This document shows positions 9,253 through 17,357 of a stretch of DNA of 33,925 nucleotides, piece by piece. A model generated the notes under the pieces. That model did not search any database. It had not been told where the DNA came from and was given only the letters and a program-made list of their open reading frames with translations. The DNA is taken from positions 1 through 33,925 of the forward strand of contig JANQPM010000019.1 of the NCBI GenBank assembly GCA_028289465.1, given 5' to 3'. This stretch comes from Lysobacterales bacterium (GTDB lineage Bacteria > Pseudomonadota > Gammaproteobacteria > Xanthomonadales > SZUA-36). Positions within the stretch are counted from its first letter, which is position 1. Each line of letters opens with the position of its first letter. Both the position numbers and the translations under genes were made by a program.

Positions 9253-10062
9253 ATGAGTTTTGATTTTGCATTGATATTGAGCGTTGCGACCCTGGTCACC
9301 GGTGTGATCTGGCTGCTGGATTCGCTGCTGTTCCGAAAAGCCAGGTTGGCGCGCGCGAACGCGCCGCAATCGGATCCGGTTCTGGTGGATTGGTCCCGGT
9401 CGTTGTTTCCGGTTTTGCTGATCGTTTTGCTGTTCCGGTCCTTTCTGTTCGAGCCGTTCAAGATTCCGACCGGCTCGATGATACCGACCCTGCTGGAAGG
9501 CGATTTTATTTTGGTTAATAAATTTCACTATGGCTTGCGTCTGCCGGTACTGAATACCAAGTTCGTCGAGCTCAATGTGCCCGATCGCGGCGACGTCATC
9601 GTCTTTCGCAAGCCCGGGGTTCGCGGCCGCGACGCTGATGCCGGTGTGAATTTCATCAAGCGCGTGGTCGGTCTGCCGGGCGATACTATCGCGTACCGCA
9701 ATAAGCGCCTGTTTATCAACGGCGAGCCGGTTGCAGCGGAATTCGACAAAGAGATGACCGCGTCGGACCTGAAATGCCGCCGGCCGGCATCCCGCACCCA
9801 GCGCTTTGTGGAACAACTGGGCGATGTGCGGCACGCGACCCTGGTACGGCAGAACTACAACGTGCTCCCGGCCGCTTCCTGGATAGTGCCGGAAGATCAC
9901 TATTTCGTGATGGGCGATAACCGCGACAATAGCAACGATAGCCGTGGCTGGGGGTTTGTTCCAGAGAAGAACCTGGTCGGCAAGGCCGTGCGTATCTGGC
10001 TGAATTGGGACTACCAGCGCGGTTGTGCCGATTGGAGCCGGGTAGGTGATCGAATCGAATAA
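9253..10062 (+). CDS. lepB: Signal peptidase I (leader peptidase)
   Basis: This 269-residue inner-membrane enzyme removes signal peptides from exported proteins. Two N-terminal membrane helices are at about residues 4-24 and 50-66. The catalytic Ser75 is in FKIPTGSMIPTL and the catalytic Lys136 in VNFIKRVVGLPGD. The conserved box E (MGDNRDNSNDSRGWG) is complete. AGGA lies a few bases before the ATG. It follows lepA and precedes the DUF4845 gene and rnc, as in Pseudomonas. Copy D of the repeat lies between lepB and the next gene, and copy F between lepA and lepB, so this operon is interrupted twice by the same element family. Confidence 0.96.
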   Translation: MSFDFALILSVATLVTGVIWLLDSLLFRKARLARANAPQSDPVLVDWSRSLFPVLLIVLLFRSFLFEPFKIPTGSMIPTLLEGDFILVNKFHYGLRLPVLNTKFVELNVPDRGDVIVFRKPGVRGRDADAGVNFIKRVVGLPGDTIAYRNKRLFINGEPVAAEFDKEMTASDLKCRRPASRTQRFVEQLGDVRHATLVRQNYNVLPAASWIVPEDHYFVMGDNRDNSNDSRGWGFVPEKNLVGKAVRIWLNWDYQRGCADWSRVGDRIE

Positions 10063-13782: not shown

Positions 13783-14568
13783 CCGGTGCTGCAGTTCGCT
13801 GCAACGGGTCAGGAATTCGAGGTAGTTTCTGGCCACTTCCGATGCGTTTTCATCGCATAGCGAGTCATATAGCATTTGACCGCTGGCCGCCAAAGCCGTT
13901 GCACCGCAATAGGCCGAAGAGGCGATCAGACGGTGGATAAGTTCGGCGGCCTGCGCCCACTCGCCATCCAGCAGACACCGGTCAAGACGGCCGCAGGTCT
14001 GCCGCAGCTCGTCAACAAACAGCCGGCGCAGATGTTGGACCAATTCCTGATCGTCGTTAGCGGCCTTCAGAGCCCGCTGTTCATCCAATACCGGCAGGCT
14101 TCCGGCCGTAGGTGCTTCGTTTTCCGATACTTCGCCGGTCACCCCGTGGTCGATGCGTTCGCGGTAGCTGCCGTTGGAAATCACATGCTGAATACAGGTG
14201 ATCAGCTGATTGCCGCTGACCGGCTTGGTCAGTACCGCATTGAAACCGCCGTCGAGCAGGCGCCGGCCTTCGTCGGCGCGCGCATCCGCTGTCACCGCGA
14301 TGGCCAGTGGGCGATAACCGTTGGCGCGGCCGGCCGCGACGATGGTTTGCAAAGCCTTTAAACCGTCCATTGCCGGCATATGGATGTCCATTAATAGCAG
14401 GTGGGGGCGGTGGCGTTCGGCCAGATGGATGGCTTGCCGGCCGCTTTCGGCCGACAATAGCTGTGGCGCATAATGTTGCAGCACGGACAGCAGAAAGCGG
14501 CGGTTAATCTCATTATCGTCCGTCACGAGAATTCGGGTCTGTGTCAAAAGCTTCACCGTGCTGTCCAA
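13759..14568 (-). CDS. Stand-alone receiver-Hpt protein resembling the BarA/GacS C-terminus
   Basis: This 269-residue protein has a response-regulator receiver domain at about residues 10-130, with acidic pair VTDDNEINR, phospho-acceptor Asp in [13 protein letters not shown], and the conserved Lys in LTKPVSG. A phosphotransfer (Hpt) domain follows at about 175-260, with its His in [18 protein letters not shown]. There is no histidine kinase, membrane segment or output domain. The pair resembles the tail of the hybrid kinases BarA/GacS, and barA adjoins rlmD in E. coli, as here at a few genes' distance. An in-frame stop at 14602-14604 rules out a kinase upstream in the same frame. Translation starts at TTG (14568), or possibly at GTG 14556. 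It converges on pdxJ, overlapping by 24 bases, and diverges from the next gene with a 30-base gap. Confidence 0.82.
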
Positions 14569-14598
14569 AGTAGTTCCGGCTGGATTGAAAAGCCCGCT

Positions 14599-16629
14599 AT
14601 GTTACGAATCATTATGACATGCCTGATGGTGTTCGCCGCGCCCGGTCCGCGGCTGTCGGCAACGGAACTGTCCGGCATCGCCGAACGCGTCTCCATTGCC
14701 GGCTACGAGGTGCGGAAAGTCAGTGTGTCGCTGACCGACGGCCTGACAAGCCTGCAGGTGAGTGCGGACGCCATAGCCGGCCGCGAGCGCGTGCTGCTGC
14801 AGTCACCGGCGCTGGAATGCCAGGGTTTTCTGATAACCGCGAATGCCGTTCGCTGCGACCATGCACGGGTTAGCGCCAGTACCGGCGGGCCCGTAGAGCA
14901 ATTGCGCTGGGAAGGACGGCTGCACCTGGACCGGATCTCGCAAGCACTGAATATGGAAGGCAGCCTGTCCTTGCTGGGTCTGACGCTTCCGCTGTCCGTT
15001 CGCTATTCACCGGACCATGGGCTGAATGCGACGGCAAAGGTCAACGCGGTGGCATTGAAGCCATTAGTCACCGCAATGCGGGTGCCGTCCGATTTGGCGC
15101 TGCAGCGGGGCAGGTTCAGCGGCACTGTGCAGGTTTCGGCGAACGCCGGTGGCGATTGGCGGGGACAGATAGATGGCGGCCTGGCCGGTGTCGATTTCGA
15201 TACGCGGGACGGCTATACGGCCGGCGCCGAGCTCGGCGTTAGGCTACGTGCTGATCTCGGGCCGGCCGGCGAAGGCTGGGAGATCGGGCTGTCCGCCGAG
15301 CGGTTTTCCGGCGAATTGCTGGTCGGCGATTTCTATACCGATCTTGGTGCGACGGCCCTGGCGCTTGAGGCCAAAGTGGATTGGCGGCCTGAGGGTTTCC
15401 GTATACACGAGCTGAGTCTCACCGATGGCGCCAGCCTGCAGTTGGCCGGTCAGGCGGCATTCCGGCGCGAGCCGCTCAGCCTGGAGCGGCTCGGTTTGCA
15501 GCGCGTTGCCGTGGCTTTTCCGGCGGTTTACCAGCGTTATCTGGCCAGCCTGCTTGCGGTATGGACACTCGGCGATCTGGAGACTTCCGGGCAAATTGCA
15601 GGTACTGCGTCCTGGGACCGCCAGACCGGCTGGAATGCCGACCTGGCGCTGGATCGAGTGGCAATCCGCGACCGGGCCGGGCGTTTCGGCATCTCCGGTT
15701 TCAACGGCAGGCTGGTCAGCGCGGCAAATGCGCCACCATCGGCACTGAGCTGGCAGGAACTGGACTTCTACCGCATTCCTATCGGTCCGACAAACCTCGC
15801 ATTACGGTTCGGCCGCGATAGTCTGGCGCTGACTGAGCCCCTGCATTTACCGCTGCTCGGAGGCGAAGTCGGGGTCGATGAATTCGTGCTCATCCGGCCG
15901 GCGAGCCAGGATCGATCGCTGCGCCTGAAGGCGAGGGTTGTGGACGTGGGTATGGCCGAACTCAGCGCGGCGCTGGCCTGGCCGCCGCTTGGCGGAACGC
16001 TAAGCGGCGATATTCCGTCGGTGCATCTGAAGGATGACGTGCTGTCGCTGGACGGCGCACTGGAGTTTCGCGTATTCGACGGACTGATGCGGGCCGAATC
16101 GCTCAGTGTGGAGCGCCCGTTCGGCGTACTGCCGACGGTTGCCGGGTCCATTCATATCGAGCAGCTTGACCTGGAGCAGCTCACCGGCGCGTTTTCGTTC
16201 GGCAAGATCGAGGGTCGCCTGGACGGTGCGATCGAGGAACTGCGGTTGCTGGATTGGCGGCCGGTTGCATTCGATGCGTGGTTTCAAAACAGTGCCGGCG
16301 CCACCGGTCCGAAGCGCATCAGCCAGCGCGCGGTGCAGAATATCGCGGCCATCGGCAGCGGCGGTGCGGTGACCGCACTGTCCGGCGCGGTGTTGAATGT
16401 GTTTGATGATTTCCGTTACCGGCGGCTGGGAATACGCTGCCGTTTGCAGAATAATATTTGCCATATGAGCGGTATCGATTCCAATCAGACGCCGTTTGTG
16501 ATCGTTCAGGGCGCCGGCCTGCCGCGCATCAATGTGCTGGGCTACAACCCGAATGTGGACTGGCCGCAATTGATTGCCGAACTGAAAGCGGCAACGCGCG
16601 GACCCGGCATCAGCTTTGAGGACGGCTGA
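14599..16629 (+). CDS. YdbH-like AsmA-type envelope protein, probable lipid-transport bridge
   Basis: This 676-residue exported protein starts with a signal-type segment (MLRIIMTCLMVFAAPGPRLS). It continues as a long run of alternating beta-strand sequence typical of AsmA/TamB/YdbH proteins. These form hydrophobic grooves thought to carry phospholipids between inner and outer membranes. The C-terminal part (ISQRAVQNIAAIGSGGAVTA, then IRCRLQNNICHMSGI, then GAGLPRINVLGYN) is the most conserved-looking region. Assignment to YdbH rests mainly on the pattern and on the DUF1318 (YdbL-type) lipoprotein gene next door, since ydbH-ynbE-ydbL form an operon in E. coli. I chose ATG 14599 because an in-frame start at 14473 would place 42 non-signal residues in front. 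It could also be another AsmA-like protein. Confidence 0.68.
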   Translation: MLRIIMTCLMVFAAPGPRLSATELSGIAERVSIAGYEVRKVSVSLTDGLTSLQVSADAIAGRERVLLQSPALECQGFLITANAVRCDHARVSASTGGPVEQLRWEGRLHLDRISQALNMEGSLSLLGLTLPLSVRYSPDHGLNATAKVNAVALKPLVTAMRVPSDLALQRGRFSGTVQVSANAGGDWRGQIDGGLAGVDFDTRDGYTAGAELGVRLRADLGPAGEGWEIGLSAERFSGELLVGDFYTDLGATALALEAKVDWRPEGFRIHELSLTDGASLQLAGQAAFRREPLSLERLGLQRVAVAFPAVYQRYLASLLAVWTLGDLETSGQIAGTASWDRQTGWNADLALDRVAIRDRAGRFGISGFNGRLVSAANAPPSALSWQELDFYRIPIGPTNLALRFGRDSLALTEPLHLPLLGGEVGVDEFVLIRPASQDRSLRLKARVVDVGMAELSAALAWPPLGGTLSGDIPSVHLKDDVLSLDGALEFRVFDGLMRAESLSVERPFGVLPTVAGSIHIEQLDLEQLTGAFSFGKIEGRLDGAIEELRLLDWRPVAFDAWFQNSAGATGPKRISQRAVQNIAAIGSGGAVTALSGAVLNVFDDFRYRRLGIRCRLQNNICHMSGIDSNQTPFVIVQGAGLPRINVLGYNPNVDWPQLIAELKAATRGPGISFEDG

Positions 16630-16724
16630 ATGCGGAGCAACCGAAAGGCATTTTCAAGGTCTGATAGGCGTGGGGCCGATAAATATGGTTTTGATAATAT
16701 GACGATGGTGAAGGAACCAAGGAT

Positions 16725-17357
16725 ATGACGAAACACTGGCTGATGACGGTCGGCGCCGTGGCATTGCTGAGCGCTTGTGTGACCATCAATGTGTATTTTC
16801 CGGCGGCCGCTGCAGAACGCGCCGCCGATGAATTTATTCAGGATGTGCTGAGCGATACGGCCAATGGCACCGGTAATGGCGTTGGTAATGGTACTGGCGA
16901 GCTGCTGCCGGCAGCCGCCGCGGATTCGCACTGGCGCGGTCTGGCCTGGATCGGCAGTCTGCCGCTGCGGTTGCTGGCTTCCGATGCACGGGCGCAAGTC
17001 GCGAATATTGATATCAACACGCCGGAAGTTAATGCGATTAAACAGCGTATGGCGGCCCGCCAGCGCTCCGATCTGGCGCTGCTGTTCGACCAGGGTGCAA
17101 TCGGGTTCAGTAATGACGGTTTGATTCGCGTGCGGGACCGGTCGGCGGTTGGTCTGCAGCAGCGCCGGCAATTGGAACGGCTGGTGGCGGAAGAAAACCG
17201 CGATCGCGAGGCGGTTTACCGCGAGATTGCGATTGCCAACGGCCATCCGGAATGGGAAGATGAGATTCGGGCCACATTTGCCCGTCGCTGGGTGTCAAAT
17301 GCCCGCAGCGGGTGGTATTACCAGGACGCCGAGGGTAACTGGGTGCAGAAGTCCTGA
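16725..17357 (+). CDS. DUF1318 (YdbL-like) lipoprotein with YnbE-like N-terminus
   Basis: This 210-residue protein carries a lipoprotein signal peptide ending LLSAC, so Cys18 is the expected lipidated residue. It is followed by VTINVYFPAAAAERAADEF, which resembles the short lipoprotein YnbE in having a strand-forming TIN segment just after the lipid anchor. A Gly/Asn-rich linker occupies about residues 45-58. The C-terminal part from about residue 95 (EVNAIKQRMAARQRSDL, then AEENRDREAVYREIAIANGH, then GWYYQDAEGNWVQKS) is the DUF1318/YdbL domain. AAGGA is suitably placed before the ATG. With the YdbH-like gene 95 bases upstream it forms a counterpart of ydbH-ynbE-ydbL with the last two parts combined; that combination is my inference. 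Confidence 0.75.
   Translation: MTKHWLMTVGAVALLSACVTINVYFPAAAAERAADEFIQDVLSDTANGTGNGVGNGTGELLPAAAADSHWRGLAWIGSLPLRLLASDARAQVANIDINTPEVNAIKQRMAARQRSDLALLFDQGAIGFSNDGLIRVRDRSAVGLQQRRQLERLVAEENRDREAVYREIAIANGHPEWEDEIRATFARRWVSNARSGWYYQDAEGNWVQKS

Follow-up and report, generated by a model that had tools for sequence, protein, structure and literature searches.

How phospholipids get to the outer membrane is not settled, and least is known about what YdbL does. In E. coli, a gene for a bridge-like beta protein (YdbH) is followed by those for a tiny lipoprotein (YnbE), with a TIN motif downstream of its lipidated cysteine, and for a YdbL-fold helper, YdbL itself, of which a crystal structure exists (28oj). 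AsmA-like proteins are described with an inner-membrane helix (PMC10900882).

Here, a two-gene counterpart from a Lysobacterales bacterium is analysed (assembly GCA_028289465.1, contig JANQPM010000019.1), in which a short anchor segment and a YdbL-like helper share one reading frame. The window, i.e. the whole analysed stretch of 33,925 nt, is contig 4 of a 2.95 Mb genome that is 95% complete and consists of 121 contigs. Systems of the kind found here are referred to as type B.

Genomic locus

The features of the locus are listed in Table 1. A preliminary description had reported a YdbH-like gene followed by one lipoprotein that combines a segment with a TIN motif, a Gly/Asn linker and a YdbL-like domain. 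All of these elements are present, the segment reading CVTINVYFP and the domain belonging to the YdbL (DUF1318) family. The frame of the YdbH-like gene is open over 14473-16629, and the start at 14599 yields a signal peptide. It is separated from the lipoprotein ORF by 95 bases.

Table 1 Features of the YdbH-like/lipoprotein locus in the window
Feature	Position	Strand	Basis or remark
YdbH-like (AsmA-clan-like) predicted lipid-bridge protein	14599..16629	+	ORF; 676 aa; N-terminal signal peptide MLRIIMTCLMVFAAPGPRLSA
Fused lipoprotein precursor (signal peptide, anchor segment, linker, DUF1318/YdbL-like helper)	16725..17357	+	ORF, PF07027
Lipoprotein signal peptide, residues 1-17, lipobox LLSA↓C18	16725..16775	+	sequence
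Anchor segment, residues 18-43: CVTINVYFP and predicted helix	16776..16853	+	conservation; separate gene in split relatives
Variable linker, residues 44-87, weakly hydrophobic at its end	16854..16985	+	pairwise identity
A88-R89-A90, predicted internal signal peptidase I site	16986..16994	+	cut expected between 16994 and 16995
YdbL-like helper (DUF1318), residues 91-210	16995..17354	+	PF07027
lepB, signal peptidase I	9253..10062	+	NCBIfam TIGR02227, E 1.5e-48

The upstream neighbours are lepA, lepB, rnc, era, recO and pdxJ. On the downstream side there are rlmD and a gene for a beta-N-acetylhexosaminidase. The lepB gene lies 6.7 kb upstream of the fused lipoprotein gene, and its product is the peptidase from which the internal cut in that lipoprotein would be expected. 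This closeness may be due to chance, as lepB belongs to the common housekeeping cluster lepA-lepB-rnc-era-recO-pdxJ.

Domain organization and conservation of the fused lipoprotein

The lipoprotein of the window has 210 aa. Its lipobox is followed by VTINVYFP, a helix-forming stretch, a Gly/Asn-rich linker (residues 43-60, SDTANGTGNGVGNGTGEL) and the DUF1318 domain, for which PF07027 matches residues 113-209 (E 6.5e-22; 78.3 bits vs a cut-off of 27). With a lipobox and a residue other than Asp after the cysteine (LLSA↓C-V), the protein has the hallmarks of an outer-membrane lipoprotein. In E. coli, the residue after the cysteine decides sorting (+2 rule), with Val leading to the outer membrane, and by this rule the window lipoprotein is predicted to be sorted there.

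Relatives included the best 80 of 481 confirmed relatives from a scan with the pattern CVTINVYF, and loci from a class survey. Of 150 entries, 9 duplicates were merged, which left 141 fused proteins; 48 of these came from the class survey with the DUF1318 model alone, with no anchor pattern. The remaining 27 of 75 class loci are outside this set and consist of 26 free helpers and a frameshifted locus, L179. Named relatives with the lipoprotein are Wenzhouxiangella, Dyella, Rhodanobacter, Lysobacter, Marinicella and uncultured Lysobacterales. Cultured environmental species with the fused gene belong to Dyella, Luteibacter and Rhodanobacter (loci L092, L087 and L121). The lipoprotein is encoded in a single reading frame in 81/81 loci inspected. 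In L179 (genome G292), anchor and helper of the type-B lipoprotein are in different frames through a frameshift in the linker, with an intact bridge gene alongside; this is either a sequencing error or a natural split.

The lipobox cysteine is invariant in the 141 fused proteins, as are F8 and P9 of the mature chain, and T3 and N5 are kept in 140/141. Within the 80 scan relatives, anchor conservation is biased because the scan pattern was CVTINVYF; the AxA motif described below was part of no pattern. Mean pairwise identity (60 rows) is highest in the anchor segment (0.69), lower in the helper domain (0.54) and lowest in the linker (0.21), whose length varies between 26 and 69 residues across the 141 proteins.

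The YdbL-like identity of the C-terminal half, proposed earlier, is secure: in addition to the PF07027 match, the DUF1318 domain of a fused relative (L057) has the fold of E. coli YdbL. This fold was read from the relative, with the domain taken from the read-through model introduced below. The alignment with 28oj covers 86 of 87 residues (Z 9.6, rmsd 2.0), and Foldseek gives a probability of 1.00 and a TM by target of 0.78. At the sequence level, 28oj was also found by the family profile (E 9e-7).

For the anchor segment, a YnbE-like strand had been suggested. An hhalign comparison of the split type-B lipoproteins described below with YnbE gives a probability of 1%; with profiles shorter than 50 residues, the power of such a comparison is low. 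The family model PF13617 matches neither the window lipoprotein nor, at E<=10, any other protein of its own genome. The similarity of the anchor to YnbE is accordingly not significant, and the likeness consists of the TIN motif, size, gene order and partner.

As a proxy for docking, a read-through chain of the bridge C-terminus and the lipoprotein, both of L057, was modelled (516 residues, mean pLDDT 84, pTM 0.64). The TIN segment (residues 346-352) forms no strand and has low confidence, and none is added to the bridge C-terminus; the helix that follows (354-369) is predicted well. The model is compatible with docking or with its absence.

The YdbH-like bridge protein

In hhalign comparisons of C-terminal parts, type-B bridge proteins and E. 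coli-type YdbH reach probabilities of 74-80% (80% and 74.5%), vs 0.1-6.9%, about 7% at most, for reversed and five shuffled controls. Full-length profiles give 41%. PF11739 (YdbH) matches 15/15 E. coli-type proteins vs 0/38 type-B bridge proteins, and nothing in the genome of the window matches it at E<=10. A direct family search of the window protein for YdbH identity yielded no PF11739 and a sub-threshold DUF748 at best, and was discarded. The label YdbH-like, as used in the preliminary description, is therefore taken in a wide sense, for a putative common ancestry of the C-terminal part, and denotes a distant relative only.

The AF2 model of the window bridge protein (mean pLDDT 90) consists nearly entirely of beta strands arranged in a long sheet. 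Among solved structures, it comes closest to a part of apolipoprotein B (9coo, Z 14.6), but loosely, with an rmsd of 14.5 over 302 residues. Otherwise, fold searches with the bridge model gave weak twisted-sheet matches, with no YhdP or TamB among the matches listed; TamB was matched solely by the read-through model (9xdc, Z 7.4). No solved relative of E. coli YdbH was found by sequence.

At the N-terminus, the window protein has a predicted helix of 11 residues followed by SA↓T, as judged from hydropathy and by eye. Its relatives also begin with a signal peptide that looks cleavable, whereas most E. coli-type YdbH proteins begin with a long hydrophobic helix. An inner-membrane N-terminal helix was not found in the window protein, and it is not obvious how a type-B bridge that lacks a membrane anchor would make contact with the inner membrane. 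In fused type-B systems outside the class, bridge ORFs are longer (797-1225 aa). Two of these loci, L240 and L242, have a long hydrophobic helix near the start of the bridge ORF, and 3/4 outside-class bridge ORFs tested match the YhdP model weakly, below the cut-off.

Distribution of fused and free forms

The fused lipoprotein is widespread, well beyond chance. Among 61 related genomes, it has relatives in 25 and the YdbH-like protein is found in 26, with 25 common to both; the additional genome (G002) has a partial match and is 65% complete. At the class level (276 gammaproteobacterial genomes), the DUF1318 family occurs in 76 genomes, fused in 50 (including the window genome and the frameshifted case) and free in 26. 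The type-B YdbH-like protein was detected in 49 genomes, all of them among the 50 with the fused lipoprotein; three weak cross-matches (G159, G234 and G248, E 1e-5 to 1e-4) were left uncounted. True YnbE (PF13617) is encoded in all 26 genomes with free YdbL and in 0/50 fused genomes. Both kinds together were found in 0/276 genomes, and PF13617 occurs in the absence of DUF1318 in a single genome, G280.

The own genome contains one copy of the fused lipoprotein. A separate ynbE had been named as the finding that would speak against the fusion; the lack of a PF13617 match refers to an assembly of 95% completeness in 121 contigs. The suggested co-occurrence in genomes lacking ynbE is seen in the class survey, with the YdbH-like protein in 49 of the 50 fused genomes and PF13617 in none. 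With this near-exact joint presence and absence across 276 genomes, and with two forms of the system that exclude each other, the fused and split forms tie the helper to anchor and bridge much more closely than gene order by itself could.

The sole fused genome without a bridge gene is G097 (L193). Its anchor has decayed to CATTNAYFP, with ADAYA kept before the helper; as the bridge gene is missing, the decay fits loss of the partner in this one case. The two genes are on different contigs in G044, G060 and G045, and in many Wenzhouxiangella loci (L053, L058-L062 and others) the lipoprotein gene does not adjoin the bridge gene. For 21/81 lipoprotein genes, no YdbH-like gene was found within the locus; at least 3 of these 21 have <3 kb of upstream sequence.

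Split loci and direction of change

In the order of G422 and G611, the halves of the lipoprotein are encoded separately. All 32 typed loci, out of 35 split-order loci fetched (L257, L275 and L291 not typed), carry a stand-alone anchor lipoprotein gene and a DUF1318 gene whose product has a signal peptide of its own, and 31/32 have the type-B YdbH gene in the locus. The split type-B set comprises L237-L239 and L258-L290 except L275. The split anchor reads CVTINIYFP, or CVTVNIYFP in two loci, followed by AAAAEKAADKIIDEVW or close variants. Since these relatives carry anchor and helper as two genes, the fusion is real. Together with the lack of a PF13617 match in the own genome, the YdbL fold of the C-terminal half and the co-occurrence of the two genes, this supports the earlier claim that tether and helper are combined in one gene.

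For the direction of change, a tree was built from concatenated bridge C-terminus, anchor and helper (88 rows; 11/99 rows under 301 aa excluded). The split rows form one clade (SH-aLRT 99) nested in the fused rows, and fused rows of other classes fall outside. The tree is a quick one without bootstrap, and the branch that nests split inside fused has a support of 91, not 95. A tree of DUF1318 alone was rejected as arbiter, being too short (118 columns) and having many open forks. In the simplest history, type B would have started out fused and undergone a single fission later, at the predicted cut site.

A third arrangement occurs outside the class. In L246-L251, a lipoprotein with CGGPLLEVTLVDERTALENQVLGSY or a close variant is fused to DUF1318 and, by eye, has no AxA; these are candidates for a truly tethered helper. 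A large ORF is located upstream in L247-L251, and that of L248, the sole one tested, matches YhdP weakly. L244 encodes a DUF1318 lipoprotein with neither TIN segment nor AxA site.

A conserved internal [A/V]-x-A site

The linker ends in [A/V]-x-A directly before the helper domain in 141/141 fused proteins, compared with 6.3 expected from linker composition. Position -1 is Ala in all 141 and position -3 is Ala in 139 or Val in 2. Position -2 is free, and +1 is Gln (78), Ala (45) or another residue, never Pro. The signal peptidase I substrate pattern (small residues at -3/-1, no Pro at +1) is therefore found in all 141 of them. Inspection by eye also found AxA in 5/5 fused genes of other classes (L240-L243 and L245). 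The motif is located where the signal peptides of the split helpers end; the boundary rule for split genes required Ala at -1, so no -1 count is given for them. In the L057 model, the site marks the transition from disordered linker to folded domain, with low confidence up to residue 398 and values above 95 from 401.

The stretch before the motif differs from a full signal peptide. The net charge of the n-region is -0.2 in fused segments vs +1.5 in split signal peptides, the median hydrophobic run is 5 vs 13, and Asp or Asn occupies position -9 in 86/141 fused segments. Export features thus appear to be lost and signal peptidase I features kept, and the segment is no longer needed for export, since the lipoprotein signal peptide does export. 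An internal start codon was dismissed as a source of free helper, because the stretch before AxA mostly has no positively charged start region.

Proposed processing and alternative explanations

The locus probably encodes a type-B system of the YdbH-YnbE-YdbL kind, whose precursor would most likely be cut by signal peptidase II and then by signal peptidase I. The YdbH-like protein, built as a long beta groove, would dock on a tiny lipoprotein at the outer membrane and be assisted by the YdbL-fold helper. For export, the precursor would use its lipoprotein signal peptide; lipidation would follow, and signal peptidase II would cut at Cys18. A second cut after Ala90, most likely by signal peptidase I, would release the helper to the periplasm, while the anchor would remain as a lipidated peptide of about 73 residues. 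These products would be the same two that split relatives make from two genes. Of all this, the fusion, the partner link, the invariant [A/V]xA and the YdbL fold are shown at the level of sequence; cleavage, docking and lipid transport are inferred. Somewhat more can be said for than against the wider reading, in which a two-in-one precursor cut by two signal peptidases gives rise to an anchor and a free helper and was later split at the cut site in one order.

The precursor is probably cut twice, because the residues read by signal peptidase I are those that are kept. The invariance of [A/V]xA at a domain border where split signal peptides end likewise suggests that the mature products are two, and it argues against the single mature chain assumed in the preliminary description. 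That the fused protein stays whole, with the helper held at the outer membrane beside anchor and bridge tip, is rather unlikely in view of this invariant motif in an otherwise free linker. The best argument for an uncut chain is the weak stretch before the site, which has no good hydrophobic core; being short for a signal peptide and carrying Asp or Asn at -9, it may not be bound by signal peptidase I. The single reading frame in the 81 loci inspected also fits one chain, as do L246-L251, where DUF1318 lipoproteins seemingly devoid of AxA indicate that a tethered helper is tolerated somewhere. A cut would moreover leave a hydrophobic tail on the anchor peptide that could hinder its release to the outer membrane, and the conserved alanines could serve another purpose. 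In a further view, AxA is merely left over from an ancient gene fusion and has no function today. This would account for its position at a signal-peptide end and for the eroded hydrophobic core, but a relic should decay with the linker, yet the motif is kept in 141/141 fused proteins and in 5/5 fused genes of other classes, and within type B the tree suggests that the fused state came before the split one. We consider this view very improbable.

Two further alternatives concern the anchor and the bridge protein. With nearly even chances, slightly on the doubtful side, the anchor is not homologous to YnbE, so that two unrelated tiny lipoproteins serve related bridges. The profile comparison and the missing PF13617 match favour this; the TIN motif, size, gene order and family of partner that both have in common weigh against it, as does the weakness of such short profiles. 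It is a matter of ancestry and is compatible with the double cut. It is unlikely that the YdbH-like protein is no intermembrane lipid carrier, e.g. a periplasmic or outer-membrane-tethered AsmA-clan protein without inner-membrane contact. A cleavable-looking signal peptide where most E. coli-type YdbH proteins have an N-terminal membrane helix, the smaller size (676 vs 879 aa) and the absence of PF11739 in 38/38 would fit such a protein, whereas the long beta sheet of the AF2 model, with part of apolipoprotein B as its best solved likeness, and the strict link with a YdbL-fold helper speak against it. As a whole, the preliminary description holds for the observed arrangement and the gene fusion; the single chain, the YnbE-like strand, its addition to the bridge C-terminus and a YdbH relationship beyond a distant one are unsupported or in doubt.

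A double cut, if real, would be a new route from one lipoprotein gene to two envelope proteins in a fixed ratio, and it would argue that the helper has to be free for its action; an uncut chain would argue for the opposite.

Comparison with known systems

The closest described system is YdbH-YnbE-YdbL of E. coli, whose bridge, tiny lipoprotein and helper genes have counterparts in the window. The window system has two genes in contrast to three in E. coli. Its bridge is shorter, lacks PF11739 and starts with a signal peptide, not a membrane helix, and its anchor, without significant YnbE similarity, is part of a protein with an internal [A/V]xA. The split type-B systems share the YdbH-like family, the CVT[IV]N[IV]YFP anchor and the longer DUF1318 domain with the fused ones. 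They differ in having separate anchor and helper genes, the helper with a full signal peptide of charged n-region and long core.

With regard to the cut only, LtaS of Staphylococcus aureus is similar: signal peptidase I is reported to cut inside the exported chain, between A217 and S218 and downstream of the membrane part, which frees the extracellular domain (PMC10865820). LtaS is a polytopic Gram-positive enzyme, not a lipoprotein, and is unrelated. In the open-licence literature searched, no description of the fusion or of an internal cut was found. New here are the strict internal site, which resembles a processing site, its split counterpart and the near-exact division of genomes between the E. 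coli type and type B.
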